Source: Rhizobium sp. Pop5 (GTDB lineage: Bacteria; Pseudomonadota; Alphaproteobacteria; Rhizobiales; Rhizobiaceae). Taken from it: a stretch of DNA of 64,000 bases. Shown piece after piece: positions 23,722 through 33,900 of the stretch. Positions within the stretch are counted from its first letter, which is position 1, and each line of letters starts with the position of its first letter. Position numbers and translations under genes: made by a program. Below the pieces are notes generated by a model, which did not search any database, was not told the DNA's origin, and saw only the letters and a program-made list of their open reading frames with translations. Location: positions 3,366,001-3,430,000 of the forward strand of contig NZ_CP099399.1 in NCBI RefSeq assembly GCF_024721175.1, read 5' to 3'.

Positions 23722-24398
23722 GTGCGCATCCTGCTCACCGAAGACAACATCGCGCTGGCCGACGGCCTGTCGGCGATCTTGCGCGGCACGGGCCATGCCG
23801 TCGATGTCGTCCATGACGGGGCGTCGGCCAACGCCGTCATCGCGGCAGAGAATTTCGATCTTGTCATTCTTGACCTCAACCTGCCCGAGATGGATGGGCT
23901 CGACGTGCTGCGCGCCATGCGCGCCCGGCAGAACCAGGCGGCCGTCCTCATCCTGACGGCGCGCGGCACGCCGGAAGAGCGGGTGAAAGGTCTCGATCTC
24001 GGCGCCGACGACTATCTGATCAAACCTTTCGACATCGCCGAATTCGAAGCCCGCGTGCGCGTGCTGCTGCGCCGCCAGGCGGGCCTGCGTTCGGCGACCG
24101 TCGGCTTCGGCGGCATTTCCTTCGACCTCACGTCACGCACCTTTTCATCTGGCGCGACACCCTCGACATTCCCGCCCGCGAGCTCGGCCTGCTCGAAATC
24201 CTCTTCATGCGGGCCGGCAAGGTCGTCGCCAAGGAAGCGATCATGCAGTCACTGACGGCCTTCGACGACGACATTTCCGCAAATGCCATCGAGCAATATG
24301 TCAGCCGTCTGAGGAAACGCCTCTCCCCGCATGGGCTCACGGTCAAGACCGCCCGCGGCATCGGCTATTATCTCGACAAGCTGCCAGAGGCCTCATGA
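23722..24398 (+). pseudogene. TctD/QseB-type response regulator with a -1 frameshift
   Basis: GTG start at 23722 after AGGGGGAA. The receiver domain is intact (TEDN, phosphoacceptor in VILDLNLPEMDG, Lys in YLIKPFD). At 24142-24145 the reading frame breaks in a T4 run: upstream the frame reads LTSRTFSSGATP and ends at 24255 as a meaningless tail. One extra T would restore TFFIWRDTLDIPARELGLLE and the winged-helix DNA-binding domain, which continues in another frame to 24398 (VSRLRKRLSPHGLTVKTARG). Total length 677 nt is one base short of 226 codons. This is either a true loss of DNA binding or a homopolymer sequencing error. It overlaps the kinase gene by 4 nt. Confidence 0.8.
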
Positions 24399-25887: not shown

Positions 25888-28800
25888 ATGTCGATCAAAG
25901 CCAGCATCTATCATCTGACGCATTACACCTATGACAAACCGGTCCGCCTCGGCCCTCAGATCATCCGGTTGAAACCGGCCTCGCATTCGAAGACACGGGT
26001 GCTCAGCCACTCGCTGAAGGTCACACCCTCCAATCACTTCGTCAACCTGCAGCAGGATCCCTACGGGAACTATCTTGCCCGGTACGTCTTCCCGGACCCG
26101 GTGACGGAATTCAAGATCGAGGTCGACCTCGTTGCCGACATGACGGTCTACAATCCCTTCGACTTCTTCGTCGAAGAGGAGGCGACCAAATGGCCCTTCG
26201 ACTATCCTGAAACGATCCGCGAGGACCTGTCGATATACATGACGCCGGAGCCGGCCGGCCCGCGCCTGAAGGCGCTGCTTCCGACGCTCGACTGGTCGCC
26301 TGGTCAGCCGACGGTCGACATGATCGTCGGTTTGAATGCCCGCCTGCAGCGGCAGATCGGTTATGTCATCCGCATGGAAGCCGGCGTCCAGACGCCCGAG
26401 GAGACGCTGGAAAGCGCCAAGGGTTCCTGCCGCGACACCAGCTGGCTGCTTGTCCAGATCCTGCGCCATCTCGGCCTTGCTGCCCGCTTCGTCTCCGGCT
26501 ACCTCATCCAGCTGACGCCGGATCTGAAAGCGCTCGACGGCCCCTCCGGCACCGAAGTCGATTTCACCGACCTGCATGCCTGGGCCGAGGTCTATCTGCC
26601 CGGCGCCGGCTGGGTCGGCCTCGATCCCACTTCCGGTCTCCTGACCGGCGAAAGCCACATCCCGCTTGCATCAACGCCGCATTACCGCAACGCCGCCCCG
26701 ATCTCCGGCGGTTATTTCGGCGAGGCCGAAACCGAATTCGCCTTCGACATGAAGGTCTCGCGCGTCGCCGAACATCCGCGCATCACCAAGCCCTTCTCCG
26801 ATGAAAGCTGGAACGAGCTCAACGAACTGGGCGAGAAGGTCGACCGAATCCTCGAGGCCGAGGATGTACGCCTCACCATGGGCGGCGAGCCGACCTTCGT
26901 TTCGATCGACGATTTCCAGTCGGCCGAATGGAACACCGAGGCCGTCGGCCCGACCAAGCGAGAAAAGGCGGACGCGCTCATCCGCCGGCTTCGCGCCCGT
27001 TTCGCGCCGGATGGATTCCTGCATTACGGCCAGGGCAAATGGTATCCGGGCGAAAGCCTGCCGCGCTGGACCTTCTCGCTCTACTGGCGCAAGGACGGCC
27101 TGCCGATCTGGTCCGACGACGATCTCGTCGCCACCGAGGGCCGAGACTATAAGGCCACGGAGGACGATGCCGGCCGGCTGCTGACGGCGATTGCCGGCGA
27201 GCTCGACCTGGCGCCGGACTACGTGGTTCCCGCCTTCGAGGACCCCGCCGAATGGCTGGTCAAGGAAGCAAGCCTGCCCGAGAATGTCGATCCCGCCAAT
27301 TCAAAGCTCAAGGATGCCGAGGAACGCAGCCGTATCGCCCGCGTCTTCGACCGCGGGCTGACGCGCCCGACCGGCTACGTCCTGCCCGTCCAGGCCTGGA
27401 ATGCACGCGCCAGCGGCCGCAGCTGGGTGAGCGAGAAATGGTCGACCCGGCGCGGCCGCATCTTCCTCATGCCGGGCGACAGCCCTGTCGGCTACCGCCT
27501 GCCGCTCAATTCGCTCGCCTATATCCCACCCTCGCAATATCCCTATATCAACCCTCTCGATCCTTTCGTGCAGCGCCCCGAGCTGCCGGATTTCGGGCAG
27601 GATGGCGGGCGCCCCCTGCAGGCCGCGCACTTCCAGCCCTTTACCGGCCAGCAGCGGGTGACGCCGCAATCGTCCAGCGAGATCGGCGGCCACGTCCGCA
27701 CGGCGCTCTCCGTCGAGCCGCGCGACGGCCGCCTCTGCCTCTTCATGCCGCCGACGGAAACGTTGGAGGATTATCTCGACCTCATCGCCTCGACCGAGCG
27801 CGCCGCGGCAGCCCTCGGCCTTGCCGTTCATATCGAAGGTTATCCGCCGCCGCAGGACGAACGCCTCAACGTCATCCGCGTGGCACCCGACCCCGGCGTC
27901 ATCGAGGTCAATATCCATCCATCCTCGACGTGGAAGGAAACGGTCGACATCACCACCGCCATCTATGAGGAGGCCCGTCAGAGCCGCCTCGGCGCCGACA
28001 AGTTCATGATCGACGGCCGTCATACCGGCACCGGCGGCGGCAACCACGTCGTCGTCGGCGGCAGCAATCCGAACAACAGCCCCTTCCTGCGCCGCCCCGA
28101 CCTCTTGAAGAGCCTCGTGCTGCACTGGCAGCGCCATCCCTCGCTCTCCTACCTCTTCTCCGGCCTGTTCATCGGCCCGACCAGCCAGGCGCCGCGCATC
28201 GACGAGGCCCGCCACGACAGTCTCTACGAGCTGGAGATCGCCATGGCGCAGATCCCGGCGCCCGGCGGCGGCCTCCAGCCCCTGCCCTGGCTCGTCGACC
28301 GCCTGTTTCGCAACCTGCTGATCGACGTGACCGGCAACACCCACCGCGCCGAAATCTGCATCGACAAGCTCTTCTCCCCCGATGGTCCGACCGGTCGTCT
28401 TGGCCTCGTGGAGTTCCGCGGTTTCGAAATGCCGCCGAACGCCCGCATGTCGCTGGCGCAGCAATTGCTGGTGCGCGCGCTGATCGCCCGCTTCTGGACG
28501 AATCCGGCCGAAGGCAAGTTCGTGCGTTGGGGAACCTCGCTGCACGACCGCTTCATGCTGCCGCATTATGTCTGGGCCGACTTCCTCGACGTGCTGGCGG
28601 ACCTGCGCGAAAACGGTTTCGATTTGAGCTCCGAATGGTTCAAGGCACAGCTCGAATTCCGTTTCCCCTTCTGCGGCGAAGTCGAATATGAAGGCTCGAA
28701 GTTGGAGCTTCGCCAGGCGCTGGAACCCTGGCATGTGATGGGCGAGCAGGGCGCAGTCGGCGGTACGGTGCGTTATGTCGACTCTTCCGTCGAGCGCCTG

Positions 28801-29211
28801 CAGGTTCGTCTCGAAACCAGTAACGCCTCGCGCTACACCGTCACCTGCAACGGCCGCACCCTGCCGCTGACACCGACCGGCGCCTCGGGCGTCGCCGTCG
28901 CCGGCGTGCGTTTCAAGGCCTGGCAGCCGGCCTCCGGCCTGCATCCGGTGCTTCCGATCAACACGCCTTTGACTTTTGACATTTATGATACATGGTCGAA
29001 GCGTTCGATTGGCGGCTGCATCTATCATGTTGCCCATCCGGGCGGCCGGACCTATGACACCTTCCCGGTCAACGGCAACGAGGCGGAAGCAAGGCGGCTC
29101 GCGCGGTTTGAGCCGTGGGGACATACGGCGGGCGGTTACATCCCGCGCGCCGAGGCGGGTTCGCCGGAATTCCCGCTGACGTTGGATCTGAGGCGGCCCG
29201 CCGGAATTTGA
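25888..29211 (+). CDS. transglutaminase-like / DUF2126 putative amidoligase fusion
   Basis: A 1107-aa cytoplasmic protein. The N-terminus is a transglutaminase N-region then a core domain with the Cys-His-Asp triad C181 ([12 protein letters not shown]), H230 ([12 protein letters not shown]) and D246 ([10 protein letters not shown]). From about residue 320 to the end is DUF2126, annotated in Pfam as a putative amidoligase of the glutamine-synthetase/GCS-like fold; [36 protein letters not shown] and [21 protein letters not shown] blocks are visible. First gene of a three-gene set; transglutaminase folds here often act as peptidases rather than cross-linkers. Product and substrate unknown. Confidence 0.88.
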
Positions 29212-29249
29212 GGCCGGGGCTAAGGCCGAGGGTTGAGGTTGGGTTTTTG

Positions 29250-31667
29250 ATGGGTAAGAGACCGGCAGTGGAGCGCAAAGAGGAGGCAGAAGGCAGCATC
29301 GGCAAGGATGCGGCCTTCGACTATGCGCCGCTTCCCGGCTCGGCTGACGAAATGGTCGACAATAAGGGCGCGATCCGTCCCGTCTGGCAGCGGTTCCTCT
29401 CGCATCTGACCACGATGCCGGAAAAAGACCTTGCCGAGCGTTTCGCTCGCGCCGACCGTTATCTCAGAGATGCCGGCGTCTTCTATCGTGCCTATGGCAG
29501 CAAGGGCACCGGCGAACGCGCCTGGCCGATCTCGCATATCCCGGTGCTGATCGACGAACGCGAATGGCAGGCGCTGTCGGCGGGTCTTGTCCAGCGCGCC
29601 GACCTCCTGGAAGCGATCATCGCCGATATTTACGGCGAGAACCGGCTGGTGCAGGAAGGCCTCCTGCCGCCGGCGCTGATCGCCGCCAACCCCGAATTTC
29701 AGCGCCCGCTTGCGGGCATCCGGCCGGCATCCGGCCACTATCTGCACTTTTGCGCCTTCGAGATCGGCCGCGGCCCCGATGGCAACTGGTGGGTGCTGGC
29801 CGACCGGACGCAGGCGCCATCCGGGGCCGGTTTCGCGCTGGAAAACCGCGTCGCAACGACGAGAGCCTTCTCGGATGTCTATGCCGAAACCCCGGTCCAC
29901 CGCCTTGCCTCCTTCTTCGGCGCCTTCCGCGACGCGCTGCAGGGCATGAAGCATTCGGGCGACGATCGCATCGCCGTGTTGACGCCAGGTCCTGCCAACG
30001 AGACCTACTACGAGCACGCCTACATTGCCCGCTATCTCGGCTTCATGCTGCTCGAGGGCGAGGATTTGGCCGTCGTCAAGGGCCGCATCATGGTGCGCAC
30101 GGTCGCCGGCCTGAAACCGATCGGCGTGCTCTGGCGCCGTCTCGATTCGGCCTTCGCCGATCCGCTGGAACTGAACCAGAATTCGCATATCGGCACACCA
30201 GGCCTCGTCGAAGCGCTACGCGCCGAAAGCGTCACCATCGTCAATGCGCTCGGCACCGGTATCCTCGAAACCCGGGCGCTCCTGGCCTTCATGCCGACCA
30301 TCTGCCGGCATCTTCTGGGCAAGGATCTGCAGTTGCCGTCGATCGCCACCTGGTGGTGCGGCCAGCAGGAAGAGCGCGACCATGTCGCCGAAAATATCGA
30401 GAAGATGGTGATCGGCCCGGCCTATTCGCGAGCCCCCTTCTTCGACGACAACGGCGAATCCGTGCTCGGCTCGTCGCTGCGCGCGACCGCCAAGGATTCC
30501 ATCACCGATTGGCTGAGTTCCGACGGCCCGAAACTTGTGGGACAGGAGGTCGTGACGCTCTCGACGACGCCGGCCTGGGTGGACGGCAAGCTCGTGCCGC
30601 GGCCGATGTCGCTGCGCGTATTCGCTGCCCGCACGGCCAATGGCTGGCAGATCATGCCCGGCGGTTTCGCCCGTATCGGTTCCGGCGCCGATGTCGCGGC
30701 AATCGCCATGCAATCGGGTGGAGCGGCAGCCGACGTTTGGATCGTCAGCGACAAGCCGGTCGAGCGCCACACCCTGCTTCCGGCCGAAGGCAGCTTCACC
30801 CGCAACATGCCGGGCAGCCTGCCGAGCCGGGCGGCTGACAATCTGTTCTGGCTCGGCCGCTACATCGAGCGCGCCGAAGGGGCGTTGCGCATCCTGCGTG
30901 CCTGGCATGCGCGTTTTGCCGAAGCCGCCGATCCGAGCCAGCCGCTGCTCGCCGACGTCTCCGCCTATCTCGCGGCCGTCGATATCGATACCGCCGAACC
31001 TGTGCCGGAAACGCTGCTGCGCAACATCGACAGCGCGGTTTATTCGGCCAGCAACATCCGAGACCGTTTCTCACCGGACGGCTGGCTGGCGCTCAACGAT
31101 CTCGCAAAGACCGCCCGCCGCTTCCGCGTTACCGTCTCTGCTGGCGACGACGCCAGCCATGCGATGACGATCCTCCTGCGCAAGCTCGCCGGCTTCGCCG
31201 GCCTCGTCCATGAGAACATGTACCGCTTTACCGGCTGGCGCTTCCTTTCGCTCGGCCGCTATATCGAACGCGGCCTGCATATGACCCGCCTGCTCGGTCA
31301 CATGTCCGGCCCGGAAGCGCCCGACGGCGCGCTCGACATGCTGCTCGAGATCGGCGACAGCGTCATGACCCACCGCCGCCGCTACAACGTCAACACGGCG
31401 CGGCTGACCGTCACCGACCTGCTGGCGCTCGACCCCTTGAACCCGCGCTCGGTCCTGTTCCAGGTGAACGAGATCCACCATGAGGTCGAGCAGCTGCCGA
31501 ACGCCCTGATCAACGGTCAGATGTCCCCCTTCTACCGCGAGGCGATGCGGCTTCATTCCGGCCTGGCTGTGATGACGCCGGAGGGCATGGGGGTCGAGGT
31601 CTACCAGCGGCTCGAACGCGAATTGGAGCAGCTTTCCGATCTGCTCGCCCAGACCTATCTCGGGTAA
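29250..31667 (+). CDS. circularly permuted ATP-grasp / alpha-E domain fusion
   Basis: About 805 aa from the ATG at 29250 (MGKRPAVERKEEAEG). The open frame extends back to 29115, but that part overlaps the DUF2126 gene. The N-terminal two thirds (about 1-480) is a CpATP-grasp domain (motifs YRAYGSKGTGERAWPISHIP, TPGPANETYYEHAYIARYLG, NQNSHIGTPGLVEAL). The rest (about 500-805) is alpha-E, starting near LPSRAADNLFWLGRYIERAE. In most bacteria these two are separate adjacent genes; here they are one protein. Predicted to form amide bonds on a peptide or amino acid using ATP. No experimental substrate is known to me. Confidence 0.88.
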   Translation: MGKRPAVERKEEAEGSIGKDAAFDYAPLPGSADEMVDNKGAIRPVWQRFLSHLTTMPEKDLAERFARADRYLRDAGVFYRAYGSKGTGERAWPISHIPVLIDEREWQALSAGLVQRADLLEAIIADIYGENRLVQEGLLPPALIAANPEFQRPLAGIRPASGHYLHFCAFEIGRGPDGNWWVLADRTQAPSGAGFALENRVATTRAFSDVYAETPVHRLASFFGAFRDALQGMKHSGDDRIAVLTPGPANETYYEHAYIARYLGFMLLEGEDLAVVKGRIMVRTVAGLKPIGVLWRRLDSAFADPLELNQNSHIGTPGLVEALRAESVTIVNALGTGILETRALLAFMPTICRHLLGKDLQLPSIATWWCGQQEERDHVAENIEKMVIGPAYSRAPFFDDNGESVLGSSLRATAKDSITDWLSSDGPKLVGQEVVTLSTTPAWVDGKLVPRPMSLRVFAARTANGWQIMPGGFARIGSGADVAAIAMQSGGAAADVWIVSDKPVERHTLLPAEGSFTRNMPGSLPSRAADNLFWLGRYIERAEGALRILRAWHARFAEAADPSQPLLADVSAYLAAVDIDTAEPVPETLLRNIDSAVYSASNIRDRFSPDGWLALNDLAKTARRFRVTVSAGDDASHAMTILLRKLAGFAGLVHENMYRFTGWRFLSLGRYIERGLHMTRLLGHMSGPEAPDGALDMLLEIGDSVMTHRRRYNVNTARLTVTDLLALDPLNPRSVLFQVNEIHHEVEQLPNALINGQMSPFYREAMRLHSGLAVMTPEGMGVEVYQRLERELEQLSDLLAQTYLG

Positions 31668-31672
31668 CGGCG

Positions 31673-32551
31673 ATGCTCTACGATCTCACTCTCCGCATGG
31701 GTTACAGCTACGATGTGCCGGCCTCCGGCGCCCGCCACATCATGCGTCTGATGCCGCTGTCGCTGACCAATCGCCAGCGCCTGGTCGCTGGCTCGATCAC
31801 CATCTCGCCGACGCCGGACGAACAGTCGCATTTCGTCGATTTCTTCGATCACCCCGCCACCTCGTTCATGCTGCGCGCGCCGCACGAGACGCTCGACATC
31901 CGTATGCAGGCCCGCGTGCAGGTCGAAAGCCAGCCGATCGCCGCCGATTTCTCGCCGCTCCTTGCCGACCTGCCGGAGGAATTATCCGGCATCTGGTCAC
32001 TGGCGCCGGATTCGCCCCATCATTTCCTCGGCGACAGCCCGCGCCTGACGCTAGCGCGCGAAATCTCCGATTATGCGCGAAGCTGCGCCACTCCTCAGCT
32101 GACGGTAATGCAGATCGCCCATGCGCTCTGTGCCCGCGTCAACAAGGACTTCACCTACGACCCCGATGCGACGACCGTCGACACGACGCCGCTCGAAGCT
32201 TTCAAGCTGAAGCGCGGCGTCTGCCAGGATTTCACCCATATCATGATCCTGGCGCTTCGAAGCCTCGGCATTCCGGCGGGCTACGTCTCCGGTTTCCTGC
32301 GCACCATCCCGCCGCCCGGCAAGGAGCGGCTGGAAGGGGCGGACGCCATGCACGCCTGGGTACGGGTCTGGTGCGGCGAAACGATCGGCTGGATCGAGCT
32401 CGACCCGACCAACAACATCCCCGCCGGCACGGACCACATCGTCGTCGCCTACGGCCGGGACTATTCCGACGTCGTTCCCGTCATTGGCGTCTTGAAAAGC
32501 TATGGCGGCCAGCGTGCGGTCCAGGCGGTCGACGTGATCCCGCTGAAATAA
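31673..32551 (+). CDS. transglutaminase-family protein (cysteine protease fold)
   Basis: A 292-aa protein starting 5 nt after the previous stop, so co-transcribed. An N-terminal beta domain (about 1-130) is followed by a transglutaminase core with C184 (KRGVCQDFTHIM), H227 (ADAMHAWVRVWC) and D244 (GWIELDPTNN). It has no signal peptide. This is the third member of the ligase/peptidase set; in other proteobacteria the next gene is often a proteasome-related Anbu protease, but here a TadG-like gene follows. Hydrolysis or transfer of a peptide made by the ligases is the likely role. Confidence 0.88.
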   Translation: MLYDLTLRMGYSYDVPASGARHIMRLMPLSLTNRQRLVAGSITISPTPDEQSHFVDFFDHPATSFMLRAPHETLDIRMQARVQVESQPIAADFSPLLADLPEELSGIWSLAPDSPHHFLGDSPRLTLAREISDYARSCATPQLTVMQIAHALCARVNKDFTYDPDATTVDTTPLEAFKLKRGVCQDFTHIMILALRSLGIPAGYVSGFLRTIPPPGKERLEGADAMHAWVRVWCGETIGWIELDPTNNIPAGTDHIVVAYGRDYSDVVPVIGVLKSYGGQRAVQAVDVIPLK

Positions 32552-32661
32552 TCCCAAAACTGGAAAAATCCGCCGATTCGTTAAAATTGTATTGACGTCG
32601 TAAGGACGATGGAAAGGAGGGCGTGCGTAAATCACCTCACAGGGTTTCCAGTTAGGTGAAC

Positions 32662-33900
32662 ATGATGAGCACCTCCTTTTCGCATCCCTGCCTGCGTCGC
32701 ATGTTTAGCGATCGCGGCGGTAACTTCGGCATTATGACCGCGATCCTGATGCCCGTTCTTCTTGGCGCTGCCGGTATGGCGATCCAGGTGGGCGATATCT
32801 TGCTCTCGAAACAACAGTTGCAGGAAGCAGCCGATTCGGCTGCTCTGGCAACCGCTACCGCGCTCGCGAACGGCACGATCCAGACCTCGCAAGCCGAGAC
32901 CTTCGCGCGGAATTTCGTCGCCGGGCAGATGGCGAATTACCTGCAGAGCGGGGTCGACATCACGAGCGGCACCGCCGTCAATGTCCAGACGACGACATCG
33001 GGCAAATCGACATCCTACCAGGTAACGGTTTCGCCGAGTTATGATCTCGCGGTCAATCCGCTCATGCAAGCGGTCGGGTTCGGCACCCAGCATCTTTCGA
33101 CCTCGGGCACGACGACCAGCGGCCATTCGCAGAGCCAGGGCTCGATCTCCATGTTCCTCGCACTCGACAAGTCAGGGTCGATGGGCGATGCCACCGCAAC
33201 CGTCAACGCGGATGATCCGACGGAGTCCTTCACCTATGACTGCAACCCCCACCTCAACAAGAAGGGCACCAAAATAATCTACGACACCTGCACCGGCAGT
33301 CGTGCGCACTATTACACCAAAATAGAGGCGCTGAAGATCGCGGCCGGCAATCTCTTCGGCCAGCTCAACAGCGCCGATCCCAATGCGGAATACGTGCGCA
33401 CCGGCGCGGTATCCTACGATATCATTCAATACTCACCCAGCAGTCTCGCTTGGGGAACGGCCGGCGTCACGAGTTACGTTAACGCGCTGCAGGCAAGTGG
33501 AGGCACGAATTCAAGCGGTGCTATGAGCACCGCCTACACGTCTCTGACGGCCAAGAATGCCGCCGGGAACGACGCCGAGGACTCCGCCCACAAGCTGAAG
33601 ACCGGACAGGTGCCCAAGAAATACATCGTCTTCATGACCGACGGCGACAATAACGACGACAGCAACTACGGCCGTTCATATGACACCTTGACCAAGGCGA
33701 CATGCGACACCGCCAAATCAAAGGGTATCGAAATCTACACGATCGCTTTTATGGCGCCCGAGGGCGGACAGGCGCTGCTGCATTATTGCGCCTCCGATGA
33801 CGCCCATTATTTCCAGGCGGAAAAGATGGAAGACCTGCTTGCCGCGTTCAAGGCGATCGGGGCAAAGGCCTCTGCCCAGGTGACGCGCCTGACGAACTGA
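32662..33900 (+). CDS. TadE/TadG-like protein with von Willebrand A domain
   Basis: About 412 aa. The N-terminal Flp-pilus TadG region has one membrane anchor (about 24-46, GIMTAILMPVLLGAAGMAIQ) and the ADSAALATA motif that follows it. A VWA domain covers about 162-405, with MIDAS residues DKSGSMG (near 169-175), a Thr-containing loop and MTDGDND. Mostly periplasmic. Start uncertain: GTG 32656, ATG 32662 or ATG 32665 are all possible; GGTGA fits the later ATGs best. No other tad genes are near, so it is an orphan of that system. It has its own terminator. Confidence 0.83.
   Translation: MMSTSFSHPCLRRMFSDRGGNFGIMTAILMPVLLGAAGMAIQVGDILLSKQQLQEAADSAALATATALANGTIQTSQAETFARNFVAGQMANYLQSGVDITSGTAVNVQTTTSGKSTSYQVTVSPSYDLAVNPLMQAVGFGTQHLSTSGTTTSGHSQSQGSISMFLALDKSGSMGDATATVNADDPTESFTYDCNPHLNKKGTKIIYDTCTGSRAHYYTKIEALKIAAGNLFGQLNSADPNAEYVRTGAVSYDIIQYSPSSLAWGTAGVTSYVNALQASGGTNSSGAMSTAYTSLTAKNAAGNDAEDSAHKLKTGQVPKKYIVFMTDGDNNDDSNYGRSYDTLTKATCDTAKSKGIEIYTIAFMAPEGGQALLHYCASDDAHYFQAEKMEDLLAAFKAIGAKASAQVTRLTN

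Follow-up and report, generated by a model that had tools for sequence, protein, structure and literature searches.

Described relatives and the layout of the locus

The Anbu operon joins genes for an ATP-grasp protein, an alpha-E protein, a transglutaminase, and Anbu (PMC6376114, PMC5666114; papers are cited here by PMC number and for their passages on these families), and a peptide synthesis or modification system was proposed in 2009, as cited in PMC3597751. A second family, the transglutaminase plus carboxylate-amine ligase proteins of the Mycobacterium tuberculosis Rv2566 type, was described in 2008 with an N-terminal transglutaminase fused to a ligase-like domain and with no small Pup-like gene nearby; the passage on it does not discuss a fused ATP-grasp or its residues (PMC2588565). 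Here we analyze a three-gene locus (genes A, B, and C) in a 64,000-nucleotide stretch of contig NZ_CP099399.1 of Rhizobium sp. Pop5, which we call the window. Gene A has the architecture of the Rv2566 type and likewise lacks a small Pup-like neighbor. Gene B carries a fused ATP-grasp that is probably a pseudo-ligase, its metal- and phosphate-binding residues having been lost, and the set (module 2) depends on a second locus (module 1) that encodes a canonical sister of this ATP-grasp.

The locus consists of three open reading frames (ORFs) on the + strand. Gene A (25888..29211, 1,107 aa) has an N-terminal transglutaminase-fold part (PF08379 and PF01841, 25903..26628) with the triad C181/H230/D246, followed by DUF2126, a putative amide ligase (PF09899, 26722..29193, 1,330 bits). 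Gene B (29250..31667, 805 aa) fuses a circularly permuted (CP) ATP-grasp domain (PF14403, 29541..30677, 464 bits) to an alpha-E domain (PF04168, 30819..31661, 200 bits); its start is most likely the ATG at 29250, a longer ORF from 29115 overlapping gene A. Gene C (31673..32551, 292 aa) is a second transglutaminase-fold protein (PF08379 and PF01841) with the triad C184/H227/D244. All Pfam scores are above cut-off, both triads were read directly, and the gaps of 38 bases between A and B and 5 bases between B and C leave no room for another gene, such as a tag or precursor. Conservation across relatives excludes a chance origin of the ORFs. A sequence-only reading of this DNA had described three tightly spaced genes on one strand, these four families, both triads, and no linked protease or precursor, all of which we find.

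By their C-H-D triads, both A and C group with the transglutaminase-fold cysteine enzymes. After rows without differences across the matched part were collapsed, the triad is kept in 135/136 rows of gene A, the remaining row being gapped there, and in 116/116 rows of gene C. The 6.74-Mb genome contains one DUF2126 gene, two CP_ATPgrasp_2 genes, and three PF08379 genes.

The layout is known and common, and the window locus is a typical example of a set that occurs widely. From a contig scan that returned at least 595 relatives we took the best 80, whose titles are all alphaproteobacterial except for one metagenome-assembled genome labelled Arenimonas; the nearest among them is Rhizobium sp. R635. 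Genes A, B, and C stand in this order with a fused B in 79/80 of these loci, the 80th (L031) stopping inside B at a contig end, and a fused B is found in 35/40 more diverse loci. Fusion is thus the rule, and the sequence-only reading, which had called the alpha-E protein often separate, is corrected on this point. Its further suggestion that fusion fixes a 1:1 ratio is weak, given the separate ATP-grasp and alpha-E genes that adjoin DUF2126 in L126, L157, L169, and L177. DUF2126 is also present on 25 plasmid records, and an acidobacterial plasmid has the identical three genes in the order A-B-C. On an Enterobacter roggenkampii plasmid (L178, 5769-14960), ATP-grasp, alpha-E, A, B, and C form one row flanked on both sides by IS6-family transposase genes. 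The DUF2126 protein of one genome (G267; L154, 7628-10733) is broken into two ORFs and scores far below the others. A scan of viral contigs returned one short relative (L179), which was not used.

The window locus shares families with the Anbu operon but differs from it in carrying DUF2126 and a fused B, in having an ATP-grasp without canonical residues, and in lacking Anbu. The Rlo and RimB/RimK systems (PMC12239564), likened here by description only, also combine an ATP-grasp with a peptidase, and Rlo includes a transglutaminase-like protein as well; they differ in that the ATP-grasp is RimK related, the transglutaminase is an inactive membrane protein, and the protease is retropepsin-like. 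In open-licence PMC text we found neither a published function for this family nor a report of an inactive ATP-grasp. As far as literature searches reach, three points are new: throughout the family the fused ATP-grasp is missing the canonical site, the set depends on the sister locus, and a zinc peptidase, discussed below, is a possible partner.

Ligase-like domains of genes A and B

In window gene B, codons 171-186 (29760..29807) read E171, A184, and R186 in place of the sister's D, E, and N, and codon 389 (30414..30416), where the alignment has many gaps, reads G in place of the sister's invariant K before the glycine-rich loop. By likeness to Ddl and GspS, we take D, E, and N to be metal ligands and K to bind ATP in this fold. 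All four residues are present in the sister gene of the same genome (L003, 7308-8885).

ATP-grasp proteins from the fetched loci were assigned to a type according to how they scored with window B or with the L003 sister, without regard to these residues, and were counted as distinct over a 360-residue stretch, which reduced 155 B-type rows to 145 and 45 sister-type rows to 44. All 44 sister sequences keep D-E-N, K, and the GGYG of the loop, the D-E-N and K positions having first been chosen for conservation in 24 sister rows. Among the 145 B sequences, D-E-N occurs in none, N in none, and E in two (L149 and L223); at the positions that fall in the gappy region, the loop lysine occurs in 15 and GGYG in none. 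The B rows include the acidobacterial and Enterobacter plasmid copies, the majority are close alphaproteobacterial kin, and the sample covers neither Actinobacteria nor Cyanobacteria.

The comparison with 3n6x, a CP ATP-grasp of known structure that aligns over nearly its full length with both B and the sister family, gives a similar picture. The protein reads D, E, N, K, and GGYG as the sister does, whereas B has A and R opposite E and N in the E-D-N run of 3n6x and lacks both the lysine and the glycine-rich loop. Further, a motif of B's own, P[STALV]GxG, is present in 145/145 distinct B sequences, suggesting selection, and when 73 chosen rows were placed in a tree, a single branch with support 100/100 parted B (46) from the sister type (27). 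Both observations make the residue loss look old rather than the result of decay; since the tree is unrooted, we infer loss in B rather than gain in the sister.

In an alternative view, B would still be active as a ligase but coordinate metal differently, and the set would be a second pathway complete in itself, with both ligases working. In its favor, the fold is preserved (E 5.7e-69 for the match to 3n6x), many other positions agree with the sister family in the alignment, and a minority of B sequences (15/145) keep the loop lysine. The complete absence of both D-E-N and GGYG from the 145 sequences, together with the genome distribution given in the next section, makes this alternative unlikely. 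The sequence-only reading had likewise counted two ligases, subject to a check of their ATP-binding residues. Its ATP-grasp half does not survive the check; its DUF2126 half does, in that each of 29 DUF2126 positions is the same residue in between 131 and all 136 of the rows compared. These positions were preselected as columns without variation among 24 sequences.

The kinship of DUF2126 was less clear. No sequence match was found in the PDB, and comparison with plant-type GCS profiles was negative. The match to the YbdK type was suggestive but not significant (E 0.067 in one comparison), with 0/60 decoys scoring as high when the cut alignment was used and 3/60 with the full alignment; in this match the part of DUF2126 surrounding E564-R566 aligns with a TLEMRI stretch of YbdK.

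The second locus and its peptidases

Module 1 of the window genome (L003) lies 512 kb away and encodes the canonical CP ATP-grasp, a separate alpha-E protein, and a transglutaminase-fold protein. In a sample of 299 Pseudomonadota genomes, DUF2126 is found in 84, and a CP ATP-grasp accompanies it in 84/84 as against 77/215 genomes without DUF2126; the Fisher tests of such co-occurrence take no account of shared ancestry, and 4 of the 161 CP_ATPgrasp_2 genomes fall below the family cut-off. The ATP-grasp is of separate size in 82/84 DUF2126 genomes (among the matches listed, with residues checked in part), and in the other two a separate-size copy was seen in L157 and L169. Similarly, wherever DUF2126 is lacking but two CP ATP-grasps are present (10 genomes), the fused B type is combined with the sister type; gene C adjoins B in nine of the 10 and was not seen in the 5-kb locus L236. 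DUF2126 never occurs without a CP ATP-grasp in this sample, and all 10 genomes with B but without DUF2126 also have the sister type, both of which speak against a self-contained second pathway. A is found without B, and B and C are found where A is missing; what stays constant is thus the sister locus, with A or B-C as add-ons, and module 2 depends on module 1.

Outside Alphaproteobacteria the two modules are also often physically linked. DUF2126 lies within 12 kb of the module-1 ATP-grasp in at least 36/52 non-alphaproteobacterial genomes, or 38/52 counting L157 and L169, and L081, from outside the 299-genome sample, is an alphaproteobacterial case in which both modules adjoin. The plasmid locus L177 carries A with a separate ATP-grasp/alpha-E pair. 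A RidA/YjgF-type gene stands near the locus in four non-alphaproteobacterial genomes (L127, L128, L130, and L141; Pfam identity in L130).

Anbu goes mainly with module 1 rather than with the DUF2126 locus. It was present in 9/14 fetched module-1 loci and 8/40 diverse DUF2126 loci, with L169 as a further case, and only in L081 among the best 80 of at least 595 relatives of the window locus. Anbu is found in 119/199 genomes of the same family, and the genome-wide search called for by the sequence-only reading found none in the window genome (nothing matched the Anbu query at E 1e-20) nor in 3/3 congeners sampled. The sole PF00227 match in the window genome, a 181-aa open frame, is HslV-like in size and was rejected as Anbu. 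L003 itself has the first three genes of the four-gene Anbu row and no Anbu. Contrary to what had been supposed, Anbu is not the usual neighbor of a set like this one; it occurs mainly at another locus, so the TadG/vWA gene that follows gene C (32656-33900) has not taken its place. That gene is a local neighbor: as a tblastn query it gave no hit in the Martelella, Mesorhizobium, Devosia, or Rhodobacter-type loci, and its conservation is mostly far below that of the neighboring genes.

A search for recurrent neighbors yielded Anbu, apparent signalling proteins (the single member scanned was GGDEF/PAS), small lineage-bound clusters, and, in four loci, Peptidase_Mx, a predicted zinc peptidase with a zinc ribbon and an HExxH motif. 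Peptidase_Mx is found in 46/299 genomes. A CP ATP-grasp is present in 45 of these 46 (116/253 of the others) and DUF2126 in 34 (50/253 of the others), and in at least 13/46 Peptidase_Mx lies within 4.5 kb of DUF2126 or of the module-1 ATP-grasp. The window genome has an unlinked copy with the HExxH motif. Peptidase_Mx is thus a possible further partner of the system.

A second alternative is protein tagging, in which the ligase adds a peptide or amino acid that Anbu or another peptidase removes (a 2009 proposal, cited in PMC6376114). The Anbu counts at the two kinds of loci favor it. No small tag gene lies between A, B, and C, however, both modules persist in the window genome while Anbu is missing there and from the congeners, and the passage on Anbu in PMC6376114 reports that no peptidase activity was detected. 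We regard tagging as doubtful.

A two-module reading and the nitrogen link

We propose that the window locus is the accessory half of a two-part, ATP-dependent system for peptide ligation and trimming, a reading to which we give about an even chance. Module 1 would be the core half; an ATP-grasp of the module-1 type has been reported to release phosphate from ATP (PMC6376114). The fused B would have no catalytic part and, together with its alpha-E domain, would be an adaptor, either binding the same substrate or docking onto module 1, while DUF2126 would perform a second ATP-dependent amide-bond step, and the cysteine-triad domains of A and C would trim or transfer the product. More tentatively, a phylum-wide pseudo-ATP-grasp/alpha-E fusion may be a non-catalytic partner of the active ATP-grasp/alpha-E ligase, with Peptidase_Mx as a further peptidase that stays where Anbu is absent, in one modular peptide system for nitrogen limitation that has a DUF2126 ligase and interchangeable peptidases.

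Should B be a pseudo-enzyme, attempts to assay it as a ligase would fail, and the right target for assays would be its sister at the second locus. Given the reliance of module 2 on module 1 and the link to Peptidase_Mx, what was a vague "peptide pathway" becomes a small number of partners that can be tested in a laboratory bacterium.

Several observations weigh against the two-module reading. The roles of D, E, N, and K in this fold are carried over from other ATP-grasp enzymes (Ddl, GspS), the B-row counts are not independent given the close kinship of most rows, and the 15 B sequences with a loop lysine may still bind nucleotide or perform altered chemistry. A GS/GCS-like ligase kinship of DUF2126 was not confirmed, and its assignment as an amide ligase is putative. 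Rv2569c, said to be of the YebA superfamily, was reported to be a protease blocked by serine but not cysteine inhibitors (PMC11081392); if it were a relative of gene C, a hypothetical kinship, it would speak against simple cysteine catalysis. Further, A occurs without any B in three genomes (G064, G212, and G036, the last with one CP ATP-grasp), B and C occur without A, and the modules lie within 12 kb of each other in only 1/32 alphaproteobacterial genomes (among the matches listed). Regulation adds to these points: sigma-54-like sites upstream of gene A number 2/91 in alphaproteobacterial regions against 1.97 expected, and the window gene A has none (best score 6.4).

The mixing of parts, including a genome (G191) in which A (L129) and B-C (L219) lie on separate contigs, might suggest that A, B, and C do unrelated jobs and are neighbors by history, but the A-B-C order in 79/80 loci and on the acidobacterial plasmid, together with the strong co-occurrence (ancestry not corrected for), makes this very improbable.

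A part of the two-module system in nitrogen limitation would be consistent with published data. In Pseudomonas putida, two genes with the annotations proteasome beta subunit and CP ATP-grasp show higher levels on nitrate than on ammonium (log2 changes 4.44 and 3.99; PMC8050072), and urea use is tied to these domains in marine metagenome networks (PMC3597751). On the Acidithiobacillus caldus megaplasmid (L177), A and the separate pair lie near ntrB, ntrC, a permease, and an aliphatic amidase. With a sigma-54 matrix built from a consensus, sites upstream of gene A were found in 6/31 non-alphaproteobacterial regions (0.51 expected), and at the module-1 ATP-grasp in 4/34 non-alphaproteobacterial (0.57 expected) and 1/17 alphaproteobacterial regions (0.18 expected); one of the module-1 sets also contained B hits, and off-target rows were present in one of the gene A sets. 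A sigma-54 promoter as the general regulator was rejected on the alphaproteobacterial count, and as that count lacks enrichment the nitrogen link is not shown for the window organism.

Upstream of the locus, the response-regulator ORF at 23722-24255 encodes 177 aa, compared with 225 aa in the relatives L009, L011, and L080. Near 24162 the window is one base shorter than L009, pointing to a frameshift or an assembly error.

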